In this document: positions 15,831 to 22,556 of the stretch, piece by piece
Numbering within the stretch: the first letter of the stretch is position 1
Layout of the letters: the number at the start of each line of letters is the position of its first letter
Source of the DNA: Candidatus Alcyoniella australis
GTDB taxonomy: Bacteria > Lernaellota > Lernaellaia > JAVCCG01 > Alcyoniellaceae
NCBI GenBank assembly: GCA_030765605.1
Contig: JAVCCG010000138.1
Coordinates: forward strand, 1-28,793
Reading direction: 5' to 3'
Length of the DNA stretch: 28,793 nt
The notes under the pieces: generated by a model
What the model was told of the DNA's origin: nothing
Databases searched by the model: none
The model's input: the letters and a program-made list of their open reading frames with translations, nothing else
Made by a program: the position numbers and the translations under genes

Positions 15831-15891
15831 CAGAGTACTGGAGCCCGCGCGGAGCTTGGCAGTGGATCGGTTTTGCGACAAAGTAGCACTG

Positions 15892-17127
15892 ATGCGGATA
15901 CTGCATGTAATTCACGACAACCCCTTTGAAGTGCCGGGAGGCGCGCAGAGCTATTCGGCGAGCCTGGCGCTGGAGCAGGCCGTGCAGGGGCACGAGTGCG
16001 CATTGTTCTTTCTGGACCGGAACGGCCGCTCAGCTGGGAAACTGGTCAGCCGCGAGCATCACGGCTTGAAACTGTTCAGCGGCAACATCGACCGCATGCC
16101 GCGGCTCATGCGCGGTTTCCAATTCCGCAACTCCTATGACAACCCTGACGCCTTCAAACTCTTCCAAACTGTTTTCGAACATTTCCAACCACAGTTGGTC
16201 CACGTCCACAGCCTGATCCTGCTCTCCTACCGCATCCCGCAATACGTCCGCTCCCATCACGCTAAGTTACTGTGGACACTGCACGACTACTGGCCGGTGT
16301 GCCATCGCATCGTGTTGCTCGACAATGAAAACGACCTTTGTCACGGGTCGCGTGACGGGTCGCGTTGCGTTCACTGCGGCAAACCGGGCTATAACCGCTG
16401 GCCGGGAAGCATGCTCAAGCCCGCCTTTAAATCCGCCTTTGCCAGGCGCAACTCCCGACTGCTCGACGCGCTGCACCAGGCGCATCGGCTGCTCGCTCCC
16501 TCGCAATACCTTCAAGGCGTCTATCGCAAACTCGGCGCGCCGGCGGACAGACTGATCCACAGCATCTACGGCATTCGGCCACTGCCGCGACTCTATGCCA
16601 GAGAGCCCAAGGAAAAATTGCGGTTTGGATTTTTAGGCAACCCCGCTGCTCACAAGGGAACGATCGAACTGGCGCGCTGCTTTGGCAGCATCCACAACGC
16701 CGGCCTCACGTTCTACGGACCGACTCCCCGGGGGCGCGATCTGATTCAGATTATCGCCGCGGCACCCGAAGATGTGATCACGTTCCACGGCCCTTACAAA
16801 CATCAAGATACGGACAAGGTGCTGCGGACCATCGACGTGCTGGTCGTTCCCAGCCTGTGGCAGGAGAACTCGCCGCTGGTGATCCACGAGGCGCTCAGCG
16901 CCGGAATCCCGGTACTGGCCTTTGCCGCGGGCGGCATCCAGGAGTTGGTGCAGCCAGGTGTCAACGGCTGGCTGCTGCCCACAGCCGACTTCCCGGCGCT
17001 GGCCCGCACCATCGCGGAACTGGCAGCGGAACCGTTGCTGGTCGACCAGATGTCGCTGGGCGCGGCGCTGATCCGCCCGATTGATGACGACGCCCGCACG
17101 TGTATCGAGCTGGCGGAGATCGACTGA
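15892..17127 (+). CDS. Glycosyltransferase family 4 protein
   Basis: The 411-residue product is a GT-B fold glycosyltransferase. It opens with MRILHVIHDNPFEVPGGAQSY, the usual first strand and acceptor loop, and has the donor-binding motif SLWQENSPLVIHEALS (E-x7-E) followed by GIPVLAFAAGGIQELV. A Cys-containing loop, C-H-GSR-D-GSR-C-V-H-C near 150-165, may bind metal. Such enzymes add sugars from nucleotide donors to growing surface glycans. Two starts are possible: ATG 15892, which gives the canonical N-terminus, or GTG 15862 with GGAG seven bases upstream, adding ten residues. The glycosyltransferase family 2 gene follows with overlapping stop/start (TGATG). A role in O-antigen or capsule assembly is inferred from the neighbours. 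Confidence 0.88.
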   Translation: MRILHVIHDNPFEVPGGAQSYSASLALEQAVQGHECALFFLDRNGRSAGKLVSREHHGLKLFSGNIDRMPRLMRGFQFRNSYDNPDAFKLFQTVFEHFQPQLVHVHSLILLSYRIPQYVRSHHAKLLWTLHDYWPVCHRIVLLDNENDLCHGSRDGSRCVHCGKPGYNRWPGSMLKPAFKSAFARRNSRLLDALHQAHRLLAPSQYLQGVYRKLGAPADRLIHSIYGIRPLPRLYAREPKEKLRFGFLGNPAAHKGTIELARCFGSIHNAGLTFYGPTPRGRDLIQIIAAAPEDVITFHGPYKHQDTDKVLRTIDVLVVPSLWQENSPLVIHEALSAGIPVLAFAAGGIQELVQPGVNGWLLPTADFPALARTIAELAAEPLLVDQMSLGAALIRPIDDDARTCIELAEID

Positions 17128-18017
17128 TGCCCGAACCGCTGTTCGCAATCTGCATCCCGGCGTACAACGCCCGCTCCACGTTGGCCCACGTTTTAAACGC
17201 TGCCGCGCGCCAGCGGGTCGGGGGCCGCAGGCCGCAAATTTACGTGCTCGACGACGGTTCGACCGATGACACGGCGGAGCTGATCGGGCAAAGCACCGCG
17301 CAACTGCTCTCCCACGACCGATGCCTGGGCCTGGCGCGGGCGCGCAACACGCTGATCGAGAAGGTCGGGGCGCAGTTCCTGGTGTTCCTCGACGCTGACG
17401 CCGCGCCCGAGCCCGGCTGCGTGCAATCGTTGCTCGATGCCTTTGAGGACGATGTCGGCGCAGTGGGCGGCATGGGCATCGAGCACTACCAGGATCGGCT
17501 CGCCGACCGTTATCGGGCGCAGGTCACTCCGCAATCCCACGGAGACCAGCCGCTGGAAGATCGCCATCTGATGGGCTTGTGCCTGGCGGTGCGACGCTGC
17601 GCGGCACTTGAGATCGGCGGCTTCGACGAGGCGTTTGCCAACGCCGGCGAGGACATCGACTTCAGCCTGCGTCTGCGCCAGGCCGGATGGAAATTGCGCT
17701 ACGAACCTGAGGCGCGCGTTGATCATCTGCGCAGCGGATCAGTGGGCGACCTGCTGCGGCAATCCACGCGCCACGCCTATTGGGCGAGTAGGGCGCTTTC
17801 GGCCATTGACCGGCGGGAGCTCTCAGCCTACGCTTTGGGCACCGTGCGGCACCTATCGACAAGGACCGTTCACGACCTGCGCGCGGGGCGGATCGGCATG
17901 GCCGGATTGGGCGCACTGGTGCTGCCGGCGCGCCTGGCGTCGATCGTCGCGGGCACGCTGGCCGGCATGCCGTTGCGCACGCAGGCCCGCTGCGCAAGTA
18001 AACACGAGGATGATTGA
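17127..18017 (+). CDS. Glycosyltransferase family 2 protein
   Basis: The 296-residue product is a GT-A fold glycosyltransferase. Motifs are PAYNA near residue 12, DDGSTDDT for nucleotide-sugar binding, FLDADAAPEP (the DxD metal motif) and GGFDEAFANAGEDIDFSLRLRQAGW, which holds the catalytic ED pair. A C-terminal stretch of about 70 residues is helical and hydrophobic in part (LVLPARLASIVAGTLAG), suggesting membrane association. The ATG overlaps the stop of the preceding glycosyltransferase with GGCGGAG upstream, so the two are made together. The sugar donor and acceptor cannot be read. A methyltransferase gene follows after five bases, forming a three-gene glycan unit. Confidence 0.9.
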   Translation: MPEPLFAICIPAYNARSTLAHVLNAAARQRVGGRRPQIYVLDDGSTDDTAELIGQSTAQLLSHDRCLGLARARNTLIEKVGAQFLVFLDADAAPEPGCVQSLLDAFEDDVGAVGGMGIEHYQDRLADRYRAQVTPQSHGDQPLEDRHLMGLCLAVRRCAALEIGGFDEAFANAGEDIDFSLRLRQAGWKLRYEPEARVDHLRSGSVGDLLRQSTRHAYWASRALSAIDRRELSAYALGTVRHLSTRTVHDLRAGRIGMAGLGALVLPARLASIVAGTLAGMPLRTQARCASKHEDD

Positions 18018-18022
18018 GATCA

Positions 18023-19342
18023 ATGCAGCCCGATATCACTCCCCAAAAGTTCGATGACTTCCTCGAGCGCCTCGGCACGCAAGAGCATGAGCGCCGGCTG
18101 AACTACTTTCGTTGGCTCGAATACCCGCTGGCCCTGTCGTTGCTCGATGCGCAGCCCGGCCAGGAGGTACTCGAGATCGGTGCCGGACACGTGGCCGCGA
18201 CATCGCTCTACCTGGCCGACAAGGGCTGCCGAGTCATCGCCTCGGATCTCAAGAGCGCCGACGAGCAGGTATTGCACTACGTTGACTTGCTGCGCCAACG
18301 GCTGGGATTCCCTTCCGCGAACCTCTCGCTCAAGGCGGCCGACGCGCGGGAGCTGCCTTTTGAGAGCGGGCGCTTCGACCGTGTGCTCTGCGTTTCCACT
18401 CTGGAACATACGATCCCCTTCGAGGACTCGGTGATCGCCAAGGAGATCGGCCGCGTGCTGGCGCCCGGAGGCCTGGCGGTTATCACAGTGCCGTTCAACC
18501 ACGGCGAGCACATCGAGTTCAACGACGCCCACGGCGAGGAGTATTTACAGCGGCACTACAACGAGTACAGCCTGCGCGAGCGGATACTGACGCCCACCGG
18601 CCTGCACATGGAGCGGGCGCTGATCTTCGGCGAGCATGATTTTCTCGACGGAGATAAGTGGCGCCAAATGCCTCGCGATGAACAGGTCGCGTTCTGTCGC
18701 CACAACCTCGAGCACTGGGAGCGCTACTGGAAGGTTTACTACGAGCTGGACCAGGACGATTTTCACATCGACCGCGAGCAGCTGGCCGACTCTGTGCAAC
18801 AGCGCGCCGGGCTCGTGGCGCTACGACTGGTCAAGTCGCCGCTGTCCGCCACGCTGTGGAGCAAATACATCTACGATCCGCTCAAGAGCTTCCGCGAAAA
18901 CGGGCGCTACGTACGACCCTTTGACGAGGGTCCCGTTGGCGCGAGGTTGCTTGATATCAAGGTGCATAACATGTACGGCACGCCGCTGGACGCCTTTAAA
19001 TCGGGCGAGACCCTGTTGATCAGCGCCAAGATCGAGGTCCGCGGCCGCACCGGCGTGGTGTTCCGCGCGACGTTCGAGGATGATCTGGGGAACTGTGTGG
19101 CCAGGGTCGACTTGCCGTTGGCCGACCCGCAGGGGCTCAACGATCTCGAGCTGACCTTCGGCATGCTCAACCTGGGCGCCGGGACCTACGATCTGACCTT
19201 GGGCCTGTGGGACCGCGACAAGCCCTCGCCGCTGCCTCCGGTACCACTCGACGTCCACGAGCCGGCGGTCCAACTGGTGGTGGGCAACGATAAGCCCGGA
19301 CTCAGCGGGCCGGTCTATCTGCCTTACTCGGTCCGCTTCTAA
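18023..19342 (+). CDS. SAM methyltransferase fused to a Wzt-like carbohydrate-binding domain
   Basis: The 439-residue product joins two domains. Residues 30-200 form a class I S-adenosylmethionine methyltransferase with motif I EVLEIGAGH (48-56), ASDLKS for the acidic residue after strand 2, RFDRVLCVSTLEH for strand 4 and a LAPGGLAVITVPF strand. Residues about 307-439 look like the C-terminal domain of Wzt, the O-antigen ABC transporter ATPase, which recognises the capped end of a glycan (LLDIKVHNMYG, SGETLLISAKIEVR, LNLGAGTYDLTLGLW). The start ATG 18023 has GAGGA only at 12 bases. It is preceded by two glycosyltransferases. Methylation of a surface glycan is the natural reading; no Wzm/Wzt genes are in the window. 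Confidence 0.85.
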   Translation: MQPDITPQKFDDFLERLGTQEHERRLNYFRWLEYPLALSLLDAQPGQEVLEIGAGHVAATSLYLADKGCRVIASDLKSADEQVLHYVDLLRQRLGFPSANLSLKAADARELPFESGRFDRVLCVSTLEHTIPFEDSVIAKEIGRVLAPGGLAVITVPFNHGEHIEFNDAHGEEYLQRHYNEYSLRERILTPTGLHMERALIFGEHDFLDGDKWRQMPRDEQVAFCRHNLEHWERYWKVYYELDQDDFHIDREQLADSVQQRAGLVALRLVKSPLSATLWSKYIYDPLKSFRENGRYVRPFDEGPVGARLLDIKVHNMYGTPLDAFKSGETLLISAKIEVRGRTGVVFRATFEDDLGNCVARVDLPLADPQGLNDLELTFGMLNLGAGTYDLTLGLWDRDKPSPLPPVPLDVHEPAVQLVVGNDKPGLSGPVYLPYSVRF

Positions 19343-19350
19343 GATCAACT

Positions 19351-19375
19351 GCCGGCTGATTTACATTCAACCGGC
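19351..19375 (+). other. Short inverted repeat after the glycan genes
   Basis: GCCGG (19351-19355) pairs with CCGGC (19371-19375) around a 15-base loop, nine bases past the methyltransferase stop. It lacks a following T-run, so a terminator role is weak. The 115-base gap before nagB otherwise holds the second hairpin at 19399-19420. Confidence 0.25.
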
Positions 19376-19398
19376 ACTGTGTTAGTTAGCTTTTTCAG

Positions 19399-19457: not shown

Positions 19458-20273
19458 ATGAGCGAGCGCATGAAGATCGTCGCTGCCAGCGGTAAGATTT
19501 TCCAGATGATTCTGCTCGACAACGAGGACGATCTCGCGGTCCACGGGGCCGACCTGATCGCCAAAACGATCGAGGATAAGAACGGGAATGCCGTGCTTTG
19601 CTTCGCCACCGGGTCGACGCCGTTGCCGGTCTACCGCGAGCTGATCCGTCGTTATCAAGCCAAACAGATCAGCTTTGCCAAGGTTCACGCATTTATGCTC
19701 GACGAGTACATCGGACTGGGCCCGGACGACCCGAACTCTTTCCGATACTATATGTCTCAGAAACTGTTCTCGCAGATCGACATCCCCGAAGACCAAGTGC
19801 ACTGCTACAGCGGACCGGTAGAGGACCACATGCAGAGCTGCTTCCGCTACGAGCGGGCGATCAAGGAGCTGGGCGGGATCGACATGATGCTGCTGGGGAT
19901 CGGCCGTAACGGGCACATCGCATTCAACGAGCCGGGCTGCACGATCGACTCGCGTTGTCGACTGATCAAGCTCACCGACGACACGCGTCGGGCCAACGCG
20001 CGCTTTTTTGAAAGCCTCGATCAGGTGCCGCAACACGCGCTGTCGATGGGCATCGGCAACATCCTCGAGGTCAAACAACTGATGATGATGGCCACCGGAT
20101 CGAGCAAGTCCGAGGCGGTGTTCAACATGCTGCGCGGACCGGTCGACTCGATGGTTCCGGCCTCTTCCCTGCAAATGTACAATGGCGAGTGCCACCTGCT
20201 GATCGACCGCGCCGCATCGACCGAGCTGCTTGAATATCGCCTAGACCAGAGCCGCAAATCCAATCCGGTCTAG
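19458..20273 (+). CDS. nagB: Glucosamine-6-phosphate deaminase
   Basis: The 271-residue product is NagB, which converts glucosamine-6-phosphate to fructose-6-phosphate and ammonia. Family marks include FATGSTPLPVYREL (phosphate loop), MLDEYIGL with Asp82, NSFRYYM, and GIGRNGHIAFNEPG with His153 and Glu158. Asn151 stands where E. coli has Asp141, a change also known in Bacillus-type NagB, so activity is not in doubt on that account. Length fits (E. coli 266). AGGAG lies eight bases before the ATG. It is convergent with the SGNH gene, and the two stop codons share the sequence CTAG. It follows the glycan genes and sits near a GH114 lipoprotein, so amino-sugar salvage or supply is a fair context. 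Confidence 0.93.
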   Translation: MSERMKIVAASGKIFQMILLDNEDDLAVHGADLIAKTIEDKNGNAVLCFATGSTPLPVYRELIRRYQAKQISFAKVHAFMLDEYIGLGPDDPNSFRYYMSQKLFSQIDIPEDQVHCYSGPVEDHMQSCFRYERAIKELGGIDMMLLGIGRNGHIAFNEPGCTIDSRCRLIKLTDDTRRANARFFESLDQVPQHALSMGIGNILEVKQLMMMATGSSKSEAVFNMLRGPVDSMVPASSLQMYNGECHLLIDRAASTELLEYRLDQSRKSNPV

Positions 20274-21577
20274 CGTCGCGGACATCCGGCAGGCAGTCCC
20301 TGATCCATTAACCTCTGCGCGATAATCTCGGCCACTATCCGATGGCCGGCGTGCGACGGATGGCAGCCGTCGAGAAACAGCTGATCAATTGTCAGGCCGG
20401 ACTGTTCAGCGCGCTGCGCGAGCAACGGCAACATGTCGATGACAGGCACCCCGCGCTCCCCGGCGTATTCGATCATCCGTAGTTGCGGCTCGTTCATCTG
20501 TTGCATGTCCTGAAACTGGATCGTGAACGGGAAGACCACGATCAACAGCGCAATCTCGCGCTCCTTGCAAAGCCTGACGATGCCGTCGACGTTGGCAAGG
20601 GTCTCGGCCCAGGCCTTTTTCACGAGGGGATCGTTGGGGTTGCGAATCAGGTCGCGGATCTGTAACAGCTGTTGCTGCTGTGCGCCGCGTTGCACATCCT
20701 CGCCCAAGCGGATGCGCGCACTGAGCCGGCGTGCAAAATACATCAGGCCGCTTATGTTGCACAGCCGATCGGTAAGCGAGACGTAGCTTTGCATCAGCTG
20801 GAAGCCGACTCCCGTTCCGCCGTAACGGGTCAGCACGTATTTCTCCACAACGTCGTTGAGCACGAATCCCAGCACCACCAGATCCGGGTCGTACTTCAAC
20901 CCCTCGCGCTGTAGGTAGATCAGCTCCTGCCAAGGCGAATAGCCGTCCACTCCGGCGTTGATCGTCTGCACCCGGCAGTCCGGTGACTGCGCGAGCAGCC
21001 GTTGGACTTGGTAGGCGAAGGTGTACCCGTATGAACGGATGCCGTAGCCGAAGGTCAGCGAATCGCCCAGGTAGAGTATGCGCTTGACGCCCACGGGCTT
21101 TGCGTATTCCAGCTCCGGACCGCGCAATCCCTTGGCGTTGATCCGCACATCGACCCTGGCCCACGTATCAACGGCGCCGGGGCGCAGCTTCCAGCCCAGC
21201 TCGTGGTCGGGCAAAAAGATCGTTGTCTTGCGCGCGAACTGGGCAAAGGGTCGCAAATAGAGCTCGGAAACCATCAGTGGAACGAGCAGTGCGGCAACGA
21301 ACAACAACAGGTCGAGCGATCTTTTACGCTCAAACAACCAAGCTCCAATACGCAATCGCCCGATTAACCGTGCAATCAACAGCAAGGACAGTCCGCTCAG
21401 CGCCAATCCGATGATGCTGGGCACCAGTTGTGTCAATTGCGGTACAATCACGCCGGAGGGCAACACGGCGCGCAGCAACCACGGGTTGTACAACAGCGCC
21501 GCCACTAAAAGCAGCAGGCCGCAGCTTGTAAGAGTAGTTGATGCCAGTCGTTGTTGTGCGGTTGGTTCCATCAGCAT
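20270..21577 (-). CDS. Membrane-anchored SGNH/GDSL hydrolase-like protein
   Basis: The 435-residue product has three hydrophobic spans (about 17-35, 52-73 and 86-104), then a long extracytoplasmic domain. That domain starts with DHELGWKLRPG and NAKGLRG, the typical lead-in of membrane SGNH enzymes. Catalytic marks are GDSLTFGYG (Ser173), FVLNDVVE (block III Asn) and DGCHPSHAGH, giving Asp403 and His406. Such proteins act as acyl-ester hydrolases or acyltransferases, some modifying surface polysaccharides. The start is uncertain: ATG 21577 or 21571, neither with a ribosome binding site. It is only 13 bases from the start of the divergent GH114 lipoprotein, so its promoter must lie within that gene; TAAAAT at 21610-21615 on this strand is a candidate -10. 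Confidence 0.88.
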   Translation of the reverse strand: MLMEPTAQQRLASTTLTSCGLLLLVAALLYNPWLLRAVLPSGVIVPQLTQLVPSIIGLALSGLSLLLIARLIGRLRIGAWLFERKRSLDLLLFVAALLVPLMVSELYLRPFAQFARKTTIFLPDHELGWKLRPGAVDTWARVDVRINAKGLRGPELEYAKPVGVKRILYLGDSLTFGYGIRSYGYTFAYQVQRLLAQSPDCRVQTINAGVDGYSPWQELIYLQREGLKYDPDLVVLGFVLNDVVEKYVLTRYGGTGVGFQLMQSYVSLTDRLCNISGLMYFARRLSARIRLGEDVQRGAQQQQLLQIRDLIRNPNDPLVKKAWAETLANVDGIVRLCKEREIALLIVVFPFTIQFQDMQQMNEPQLRMIEYAGERGVPVIDMLPLLAQRAEQSGLTIDQLFLDGCHPSHAGHRIVAEIIAQRLMDQGLPAGCPRR

Positions 21578-21590
21578 TCCGGAGGATCAA

Positions 21591-22556
21591 TTGCCGACGA
21601 ATATAGCAGATTTTATCGCCTCAACCGCATTGCTGCTGTTGCTGGCTTGTCTGGCGATCCCAGGCTGCTCGGGCGACCAGGATGATGACGACGATGACGG
21701 ATACGATGGTGACGACATTGATCTGTCCGCTGTCGACGACTGGACATACTGGCTTTCCGATATCGATCTACTCGAACTGGGGAACAGCGCCTTTGACCTG
21801 GCGGTGATCGATTATTCGCAGGGCGGCGAGGAGTCCGGCGAATGGAGCCCTGAACAGATCGCCGATCTACGCGCCTCTGCGGGCGGCGACAAGTTGGCGC
21901 TGGCCTATCTCAGCATAGGCGAGGCCGAGGATTATCGCTTCTACTGGGATCAAGACTGGCTCGACCAACCCCCGGATTGGCTCGGACCGGAGAATCCGGA
22001 CTGGACCGGAAATTACAAGGTGCGCTATTGGATGGACGGCTGGCAGCGGCTGATTCTCGGGCAAAACGGCTACCTGGAACGGATCATGGATATGGGCTTC
22101 GACGGAGTGTACCTCGACATCATCGACGCCTATGAATTCTGGGGTCCCGAGGGACTCGACCAAAAAGACGATGCGGCGGATCAGATGGTCCGCTTCGTCG
22201 ATCGTATCGCGCAACAGGCCAGGCAGGTCAACCCGGATTTTATTGTATTGGGACAAAACGGCCTGGAACTGGCTGAGCTCGAGCCAGAGTACCTGGAGAT
22301 AATCGACGGTGTGGGCGCGGAGGATACGTTCTTTGACGGCGACGACCCACAGCCTGCTGACGACGTTGAGTGGACTGTTGAACTGCTCGATCTGTACCTA
22401 CAGCGTGGGCTGATCGTGCTGGCGATTGATTACTGTCGAAAGAGCGACAACGTCGATCGGTTTTATCGGATGGCATTGGAACACGGGTACGTGCCGTACA
22501 GCTCGCAACGTGACCTGGAACAGCTGACGATCGACCTGGGACACGAACCTGATTGA
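21591..22556 (+). CDS. GH114 family lipoprotein (endo-alpha-1,4-polygalactosaminidase type)
   Basis: The 321-residue product has a lipoprotein signal with lipobox IPGC (Cys26), then an acidic tether (GDQDDDDDDG). The mature domain is the GH114/TM1410 fold, a TIM-like barrel: DLAVIDYSQGG (Asp74), ALAYLSIGEAEDYR (Glu111), NPDWTGNYKVRYW, GFDGVYLDIIDAYEFW (Asp176) and a late IVLAIDYC strand. Characterised members cut alpha-1,4-linked galactosamine polymers, and the Pel exopolysaccharide enzyme PelA has a related domain. The start is TTG 21591: GGAGG at 21581-21585 is five bases upstream. A longer frame from 21411 would place 60 extra residues ahead of the signal peptide and is rejected. Its placement beside an SGNH enzyme and nagB hints at turnover of an amino-sugar polymer at the cell surface. 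Confidence 0.88.
   Translation: MPTNIADFIASTALLLLLACLAIPGCSGDQDDDDDDGYDGDDIDLSAVDDWTYWLSDIDLLELGNSAFDLAVIDYSQGGEESGEWSPEQIADLRASAGGDKLALAYLSIGEAEDYRFYWDQDWLDQPPDWLGPENPDWTGNYKVRYWMDGWQRLILGQNGYLERIMDMGFDGVYLDIIDAYEFWGPEGLDQKDDAADQMVRFVDRIAQQARQVNPDFIVLGQNGLELAELEPEYLEIIDGVGAEDTFFDGDDPQPADDVEWTVELLDLYLQRGLIVLAIDYCRKSDNVDRFYRMALEHGYVPYSSQRDLEQLTIDLGHEPD

Follow-up and report, generated by a model that had tools for sequence, protein, structure and literature searches.

A methyltransferase joined to a Wzt-type carbohydrate-binding domain in Candidatus Alcyoniella australis, a candidate glycan O-methyltransferase

In Candidatus Alcyoniella australis (GTDB Bacteria; Lernaellota; Lernaellaia; JAVCCG01; Alcyoniellaceae), a class I SAM-dependent methyltransferase and a relative of the C-terminal carbohydrate-binding domain of Wzt are joined in one polypeptide. 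The window analysed here is the whole 28,793-nt stretch of contig JAVCCG010000138.1 (GCA_030765605.1), in which the fusion gene is the third of a tight set, preceded by the genes of a GT4-type and a GT2-type glycosyltransferase (Table 1). Both halves of the chain and the two adjacent glycosyltransferases had been proposed in a sequence-only reading, and all are matched by Pfam families. The fusion is real, conserved and modestly novel, and we infer its function as follows: the protein is probably a cytoplasmic SAM-dependent glycan O-methyltransferase, kept on the chain by a Wzt-derived carbohydrate-binding module (CBM).

In exporter-dependent glycans, the proteins that add the cap and those that recognise it have been studied separately, and little is understood of how terminators locate chain ends. 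With methyltransferase and Wzt_C naturally fused, one small protein becomes available in which to ask whether recognition serves substrate recruitment or product retention, and whether an exporter-type recognition domain can function when no exporter is encoded at its locus.

Table 1. Features of the fusion gene and its gene set in the window (nucleotide positions; residue numbers refer to the fusion protein)
Feature	Position	Strand	Basis
GT4-type glycosyltransferase, gene 1 of the set	15893..17127	+	Pfam Glyco_trans_1_4 (8.6e-21), Glycos_transf_1 (1.9e-18)
GT2-type glycosyltransferase, gene 2 of the set	17127..18017	+	Pfam Glycos_transf_2 (6.8e-23)
Methyltransferase-Wzt_C fusion protein, 439 aa	18023..19342	+	Intact ORF; full-length homologues in other genomes
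Class I SAM-dependent methyltransferase half, residues ~1-276	18023..18850	+	Pfam Methyltransf_11/25/23; invariant columns
Wzt_C / carbohydrate-binding domain, residues 299-439	18917..19339	+	Pfam Wzt_C; Aquifex Wzt structures; hhalign to class Wzt C-terminal domains
Inverted repeat, possible weak terminator	19349..19377	+	-14.7 kcal/mol, z -1.9; 7/200 shuffles fold equally well

The three genes of the set are closely packed. The GT4 ORF is listed from a TTG at 15856, and the ATG at 15893, read from the sequence, is its likely start. The GT2 ORF is listed from a GTG at 17100; its ATG at 17127 shares one base with the GT4 stop (TGATG at 17125-17129). The GT2 stop (18015-18017) lies five bases upstream of the fusion ATG at 18023, and an in-frame TTG is also located at 18014. 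Such a spacing, with a one-base overlap and a five-base gap, suggests that the GT4, GT2 and fusion genes are co-transcribed and perhaps translationally coupled. The inverted repeat is situated just 3' of the fusion stop, which ends at 19342, with a TTTTT some distance beyond, and the next gene, glucosamine-6-phosphate isomerase-like and located at 19458, appears to be a separate unit. Near the glycosyltransferase set, the window also encodes a GDSL/SGNH hydrolase (20270-21577) and a GH114-family glycoside hydrolase (21411-22556), with a possible role in glycan processing. Elsewhere in the window, the listed ORFs of two CoA-transferase proteins (PF01144; 3095-4204 and 3949-4974) overlap, and the second probably starts later than listed.

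The C-terminal domain, which the sequence-only reading had placed at residues 307-439, shows the expected similarity to Wzt. Wzt_C (PF14524) matches residues 306-430 with 33.4 bits against a cut-off of 30.4 in Pfam, and with 36.3 bits in the genome search; across this region, homologues in other genomes reach 43-65 bits. Among structure chains, a profile built from six C-terminal sequences credibly matches only those of Aquifex Wzt, namely 7k2t, 8dku, 8dky and 6o14 (E 2.3e-7 to 9e-7). In profile-profile comparison (hhalign) with the C-terminal domains of seven genuine Wzt proteins of the class, the match reaches E 4e-27 over 142/146 columns. The full length of Wzt_C is kept in the fusion, including the last strand GPVYLPYSVRF; a single-sequence AlphaFold model of the fusion protein has a mean pLDDT of 35. 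Relatives and profiles strengthen the single-sequence score, and a chance or marginal Pfam match is ruled out. These sequence comparisons confirm the domain as a true relative of the Wzt carbohydrate-binding domain. In the Pfam scan, the fusion protein contains no ABC_tran, and it has no Walker A, so it does not belong to the Wzt exporter ATPases.

In the methyltransferase half, Methyltransf_11 matches residues 50-154 (E 7.5e-13, Pfam). This half contains the SAM motif VLEIGAG, the acidic residue D75, FDRVLCVSTLEH and the family motif QRHYNE, the QRHY of which is shared across the family, and the residues V49, L50, G53, D75, D119, E128 and H129 are invariant in the alignment of the fusion family. 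The Rossmann motifs for SAM binding are present, placing this half among the class I SAM methyltransferases. In the copy of genome G001, an insertion of ~56 residues is situated between the two domains and therefore marks the domain boundary of the fusion. Best NCBIfam matches of the methyltransferase part of the relatives include the mycofactocin-oligosaccharide methyltransferase MftM (NF041255), at 40 bits against a cut-off of 200; like MftM, the other best matches fall far short of their cut-offs. Like the fusion protein as read here, MftM is by its name a glycan O-methyltransferase; the similarity is that of the general fold only, and we know of no CBM in MftM. Class I methyltransferase profiles are unspecific and, as sequence matches, do not reveal the substrate. 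The nearest single-domain relatives of the methyltransferase are located in ABC-exporter glycan loci: in G030, the relative shares one same-strand gene run with Wzt, an AsnB-like protein and glycosyltransferase-like proteins, and in G324 it overlaps the end of wzt.

The Wzt domain of Aquifex binds 3-O-methyl-mannose and not mannose, through contacts that include Asn313, His350, Thr346, Ala348, Leu300 and Trp362 (PMC9445017). These published residue numbers correspond to the chain index used here minus one, after which the identities agree. At the equivalent positions, the fusion family carries N/H/D (N313), W/F (H350), T/S (T346), G (A348) and A/L/T (L300); the W362 position, inferred through the Aquifex-like sequence L056, is apparently V/L/R. 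Pocket residues vary among true Wzt domains too; each Wzt domain fits its own ligand, so pocket variation is normal. Both the class Wzt domains and the fusion possess a Trp (or Phe in the fusion) at the His350 position, with a longer loop after it. Judged by its sequence, the C-terminal domain of the fusion is a plausible CBM, from which ligand and cap cannot be read off because the cap-pocket residues of Aquifex are only partly kept.

The fusion is found in six of the seven sampled genomes of the class, as six intact copies and one frame-broken copy with 38-42% identity. Outside the window genome, the copies are located in G001, G002 (two), G003, G005 and G006; in G004 no fusion was found, though class Wzt is present. 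The G005 copy (L051:8161-9484, minus strand) is the frame-broken one, either a pseudogene or an assembly error. An assembly chimera is ruled out, since the fusion recurs in independent genomes. A full-length profile run over 386 genomes, with about four candidates scored per genome, found no fusion outside the class; with most families or genera represented by a single genome, this sample is not a census. The contig profile scan returned one distant methyltransferase only and no fusion, the plasmids gave one partial methyltransferase match, the phages none, and the viral contigs no relatives. Searches around G030 and G193, which mostly resampled the same genomes, gave no further fusion.

Across the 386 genomes, 129 of the 140 distinct Wzt_C domains examined are situated in proteins with Walker A and the ABC signature, a count that excludes about ten listed matches and weak unlisted ones. 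The other eleven comprise six members of the fusion family (five intact, one broken piece), one protein that has Walker A and missed the signature pattern only, and four fragments judged to be truncated Wzt, with contig ends checked for part of them. Apart from the presumed truncated Wzt, all examined Wzt_C domains without an ABC ATPase belong to the fusion family. GT4-type glycosyltransferases are encoded within a few kb of the fusion genes in G002 and G003. Outside the window genome, the fusion neighbourhoods are not conserved; several copies lie among unrelated genes, and no Wzt_C match of the relatives adjoins a fusion gene.

The locus had also been described, in the sequence-only reading, as being without the ABC transporter. 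This holds within the 28.8-kb contig, where no Wzm/Wzt is present and the fusion is thus not encoded with an exporter, but it does not hold for the genome: the search for Wzm/Wzt elsewhere that had been suggested yields three pairs, on C119, C141 and C151, and absence of an exporter from the organism is ruled out. The further idea of a self-targeting capping enzyme is borne out in its architecture and glycan context and not in the capping itself, as the pocket is partly kept and the fusion protein has no kinase or other terminator module. The fusion may serve in end-capping or in internal decoration of the chain.

In the reading preferred here, the fusion methyltransferase would work with the GT4 and GT2 enzymes encoded just upstream. 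The methyltransferase would have acquired its Wzt-type domain in a single event that dates to the ancestor of the class or earlier. This C-terminal domain would now hold the enzyme to its chain, whether still growing or complete, and thereby combine methyl transfer with chain recognition in one molecule. We infer a glycan as the substrate, bound by the C-terminal domain and methylated at or near the chain end. That most sampled genomes of the class conserve the fusion is suggestive of an enzyme bound to the very glycan that it methylates. In Aquifex, the best-studied case, the Wzt domain binds the capped end and not the unmodified sugar; a domain of this type would recognise the product and not the substrate, and therefore binding the chain that is modified, as the sequence-only reading had put it, need not mean substrate recruitment; by analogy, the Aquifex precedent favours a CBM that would retain the product rather than recruit the substrate.

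A possible, though somewhat unlikely, alternative is a terminator acting in trans for the class-wide C119-type Wzm/Wzt, in which the methyltransferase would end-cap the polymer of this exporter and the C-terminal domain would read the same chain end as Wzt, the cap-adding and cap-reading parts sharing a domain family. The distribution fits in part: C119-type Wzt is present in 7/7 genomes of the class and the fusion in 6/7, but G004 has the exporter and no fusion, and the fusion and exporter genes are unlinked in every genome. Over the stretch compared, the C119 locus has radical SAM enzymes and no methyltransferase match, whereas the C151 and C141 loci each contain a free-standing methyltransferase; on C151 its gene directly follows wzt, the listed ORF overlapping wzt. 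A fusion gene in G002 is located about 4 kb from the gene of a GT4-radical SAM/SPASM protein, the radical SAM part of which resembles the radical SAM parts encoded in the C119-type loci. A relation to the class Wzt domains is also favoured by two shared features, Trp (or Phe) in place of His350 and a lengthened loop after it, but the Trp is also found in some other Wzt domains.

The phylogeny of the domain bears on the same alternative. The methyltransferase-linked C-terminal domains form one clade, with support of 99/99 in the first tree and 100/99 in a wider tree. In the first tree they neighbour the class-wide Wzt domains (81/88, with one further row included), but the free search of the wider tree leaves this sister relation unplaced. 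When the wider tree is constrained to unite the fusion and class Wzt domains, the likelihood is 3.6 log units above that of the free search (p-AU 0.59), a test that only fails to reject the relation. The profile-profile E-value of 4e-27 against class Wzt compares with 7e-22 against other Wzt C-terminal domains, and the two sets differ in diversity, so the values are not directly comparable. The fusion domain and the class Wzt domain may possibly be sisters, a relation that the wider sampling makes less firm than in the first tree.

The C-terminal domain might instead be mainly a module for dimerisation or docking, with little sugar binding, forming a strand-exchanged dimer and hence a dimeric methyltransferase, or docking on Wzt. 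In isolation, Wzt carbohydrate-binding domains dimerise by swapping their C-terminal strands (PMC9445017), and the fusion family has retained the last strand. The variable pocket residues would also suit this role, but the same variation among true Wzt domains takes away from their weight, and the alternative is considered unlikely. Still less probable is a methyltransferase acting on a target other than a chain, such as a sugar nucleotide, a lipid or a small molecule, with the C-terminal beta-sandwich recruited for a new role. The unspecific methyltransferase profiles and the several relatives without recognised glycan genes adjoining are consistent with such a target, against which stand the glycosyltransferase genes that adjoin the fusion gene in the window and lie near it in G002 and G003, the exporter-linked glycan loci of the nearest methyltransferase relatives, and the full-length Wzt_C similarity. 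Very improbable is a fusion that both writes and carries an export mark, methylating the chain end, keeping that end bound to its own Wzt-type domain once methylated, and handing the chain to an unlinked Wzm/Wzt by pairing or strand exchange with the Wzt domain, which, if true, would mean export quality control encoded away from the transporter.

A glycan O-methyltransferase with its own Wzt-type CBM, as preferred here, can be compared with several known systems. The Klebsiella pneumoniae O7 terminator ORF6, a methyltransferase-kinase with an Ig-like CBM, a coiled coil and GT2 modules, is the nearest example of a terminator methyltransferase with a predicted CBM; according to its authors, such modules were not known from other terminators (PMC11231755). 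Like ORF6, the fusion belongs to a glycan assembly setting and is a single polypeptide in which an N-terminal methyltransferase is combined with a predicted beta-sandwich for carbohydrate binding. Unlike ORF6, the 439-aa protein is devoid of kinase, coiled-coil and GT modules, and its CBM, placed at the very C-terminus, is recognisable by sequence as Wzt_C; no exporter adjoins. WbdD of E. coli O9a is a kinase-methyltransferase that adds methylphosphate (PMC3482155); here too a SAM methyltransferase would work with glycosyltransferases, and an end modification is proposed, whereas the fusion has Wzt_C instead of a kinase domain. No kinase family was found in the fusion protein by the Pfam scan, which sets it apart from terminators of the WbdD and O7 ORF6 type. 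Compared with Wzt of the ABC-dependent O-antigen exporters (Aquifex 7k2t/8dku/6o14; E. coli O9a type), the homologous C-terminal domain is kept at full length, but a methyltransferase takes the place of the ABC ATPase domain. In the literature searched, most subscription journals being outside that search, no published description of a methyltransferase-Wzt_C fusion was found.

Several exporter loci of the compared genomes have features of their own. Some Wzt proteins possess C-terminal extensions of ~165-330 residues past Wzt_C (L186:720-2900, L185, L057, L133 and L135), and no Pfam family matched the extensions in L186, L057 and L133. The GT4-radical SAM/SPASM protein of G002 is itself a fusion of 859 aa (L048:2263-4842, minus strand). 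In the C119 locus (L044:7297-13324) and its orthologues L052, L053, L054, L087, L088 and L089, radical SAM / SPASM genes are situated where glycosyltransferases would be expected, and radical SAM genes beside Wzt are also found in G045 (L064), G190 (L180) and G322 (L176).
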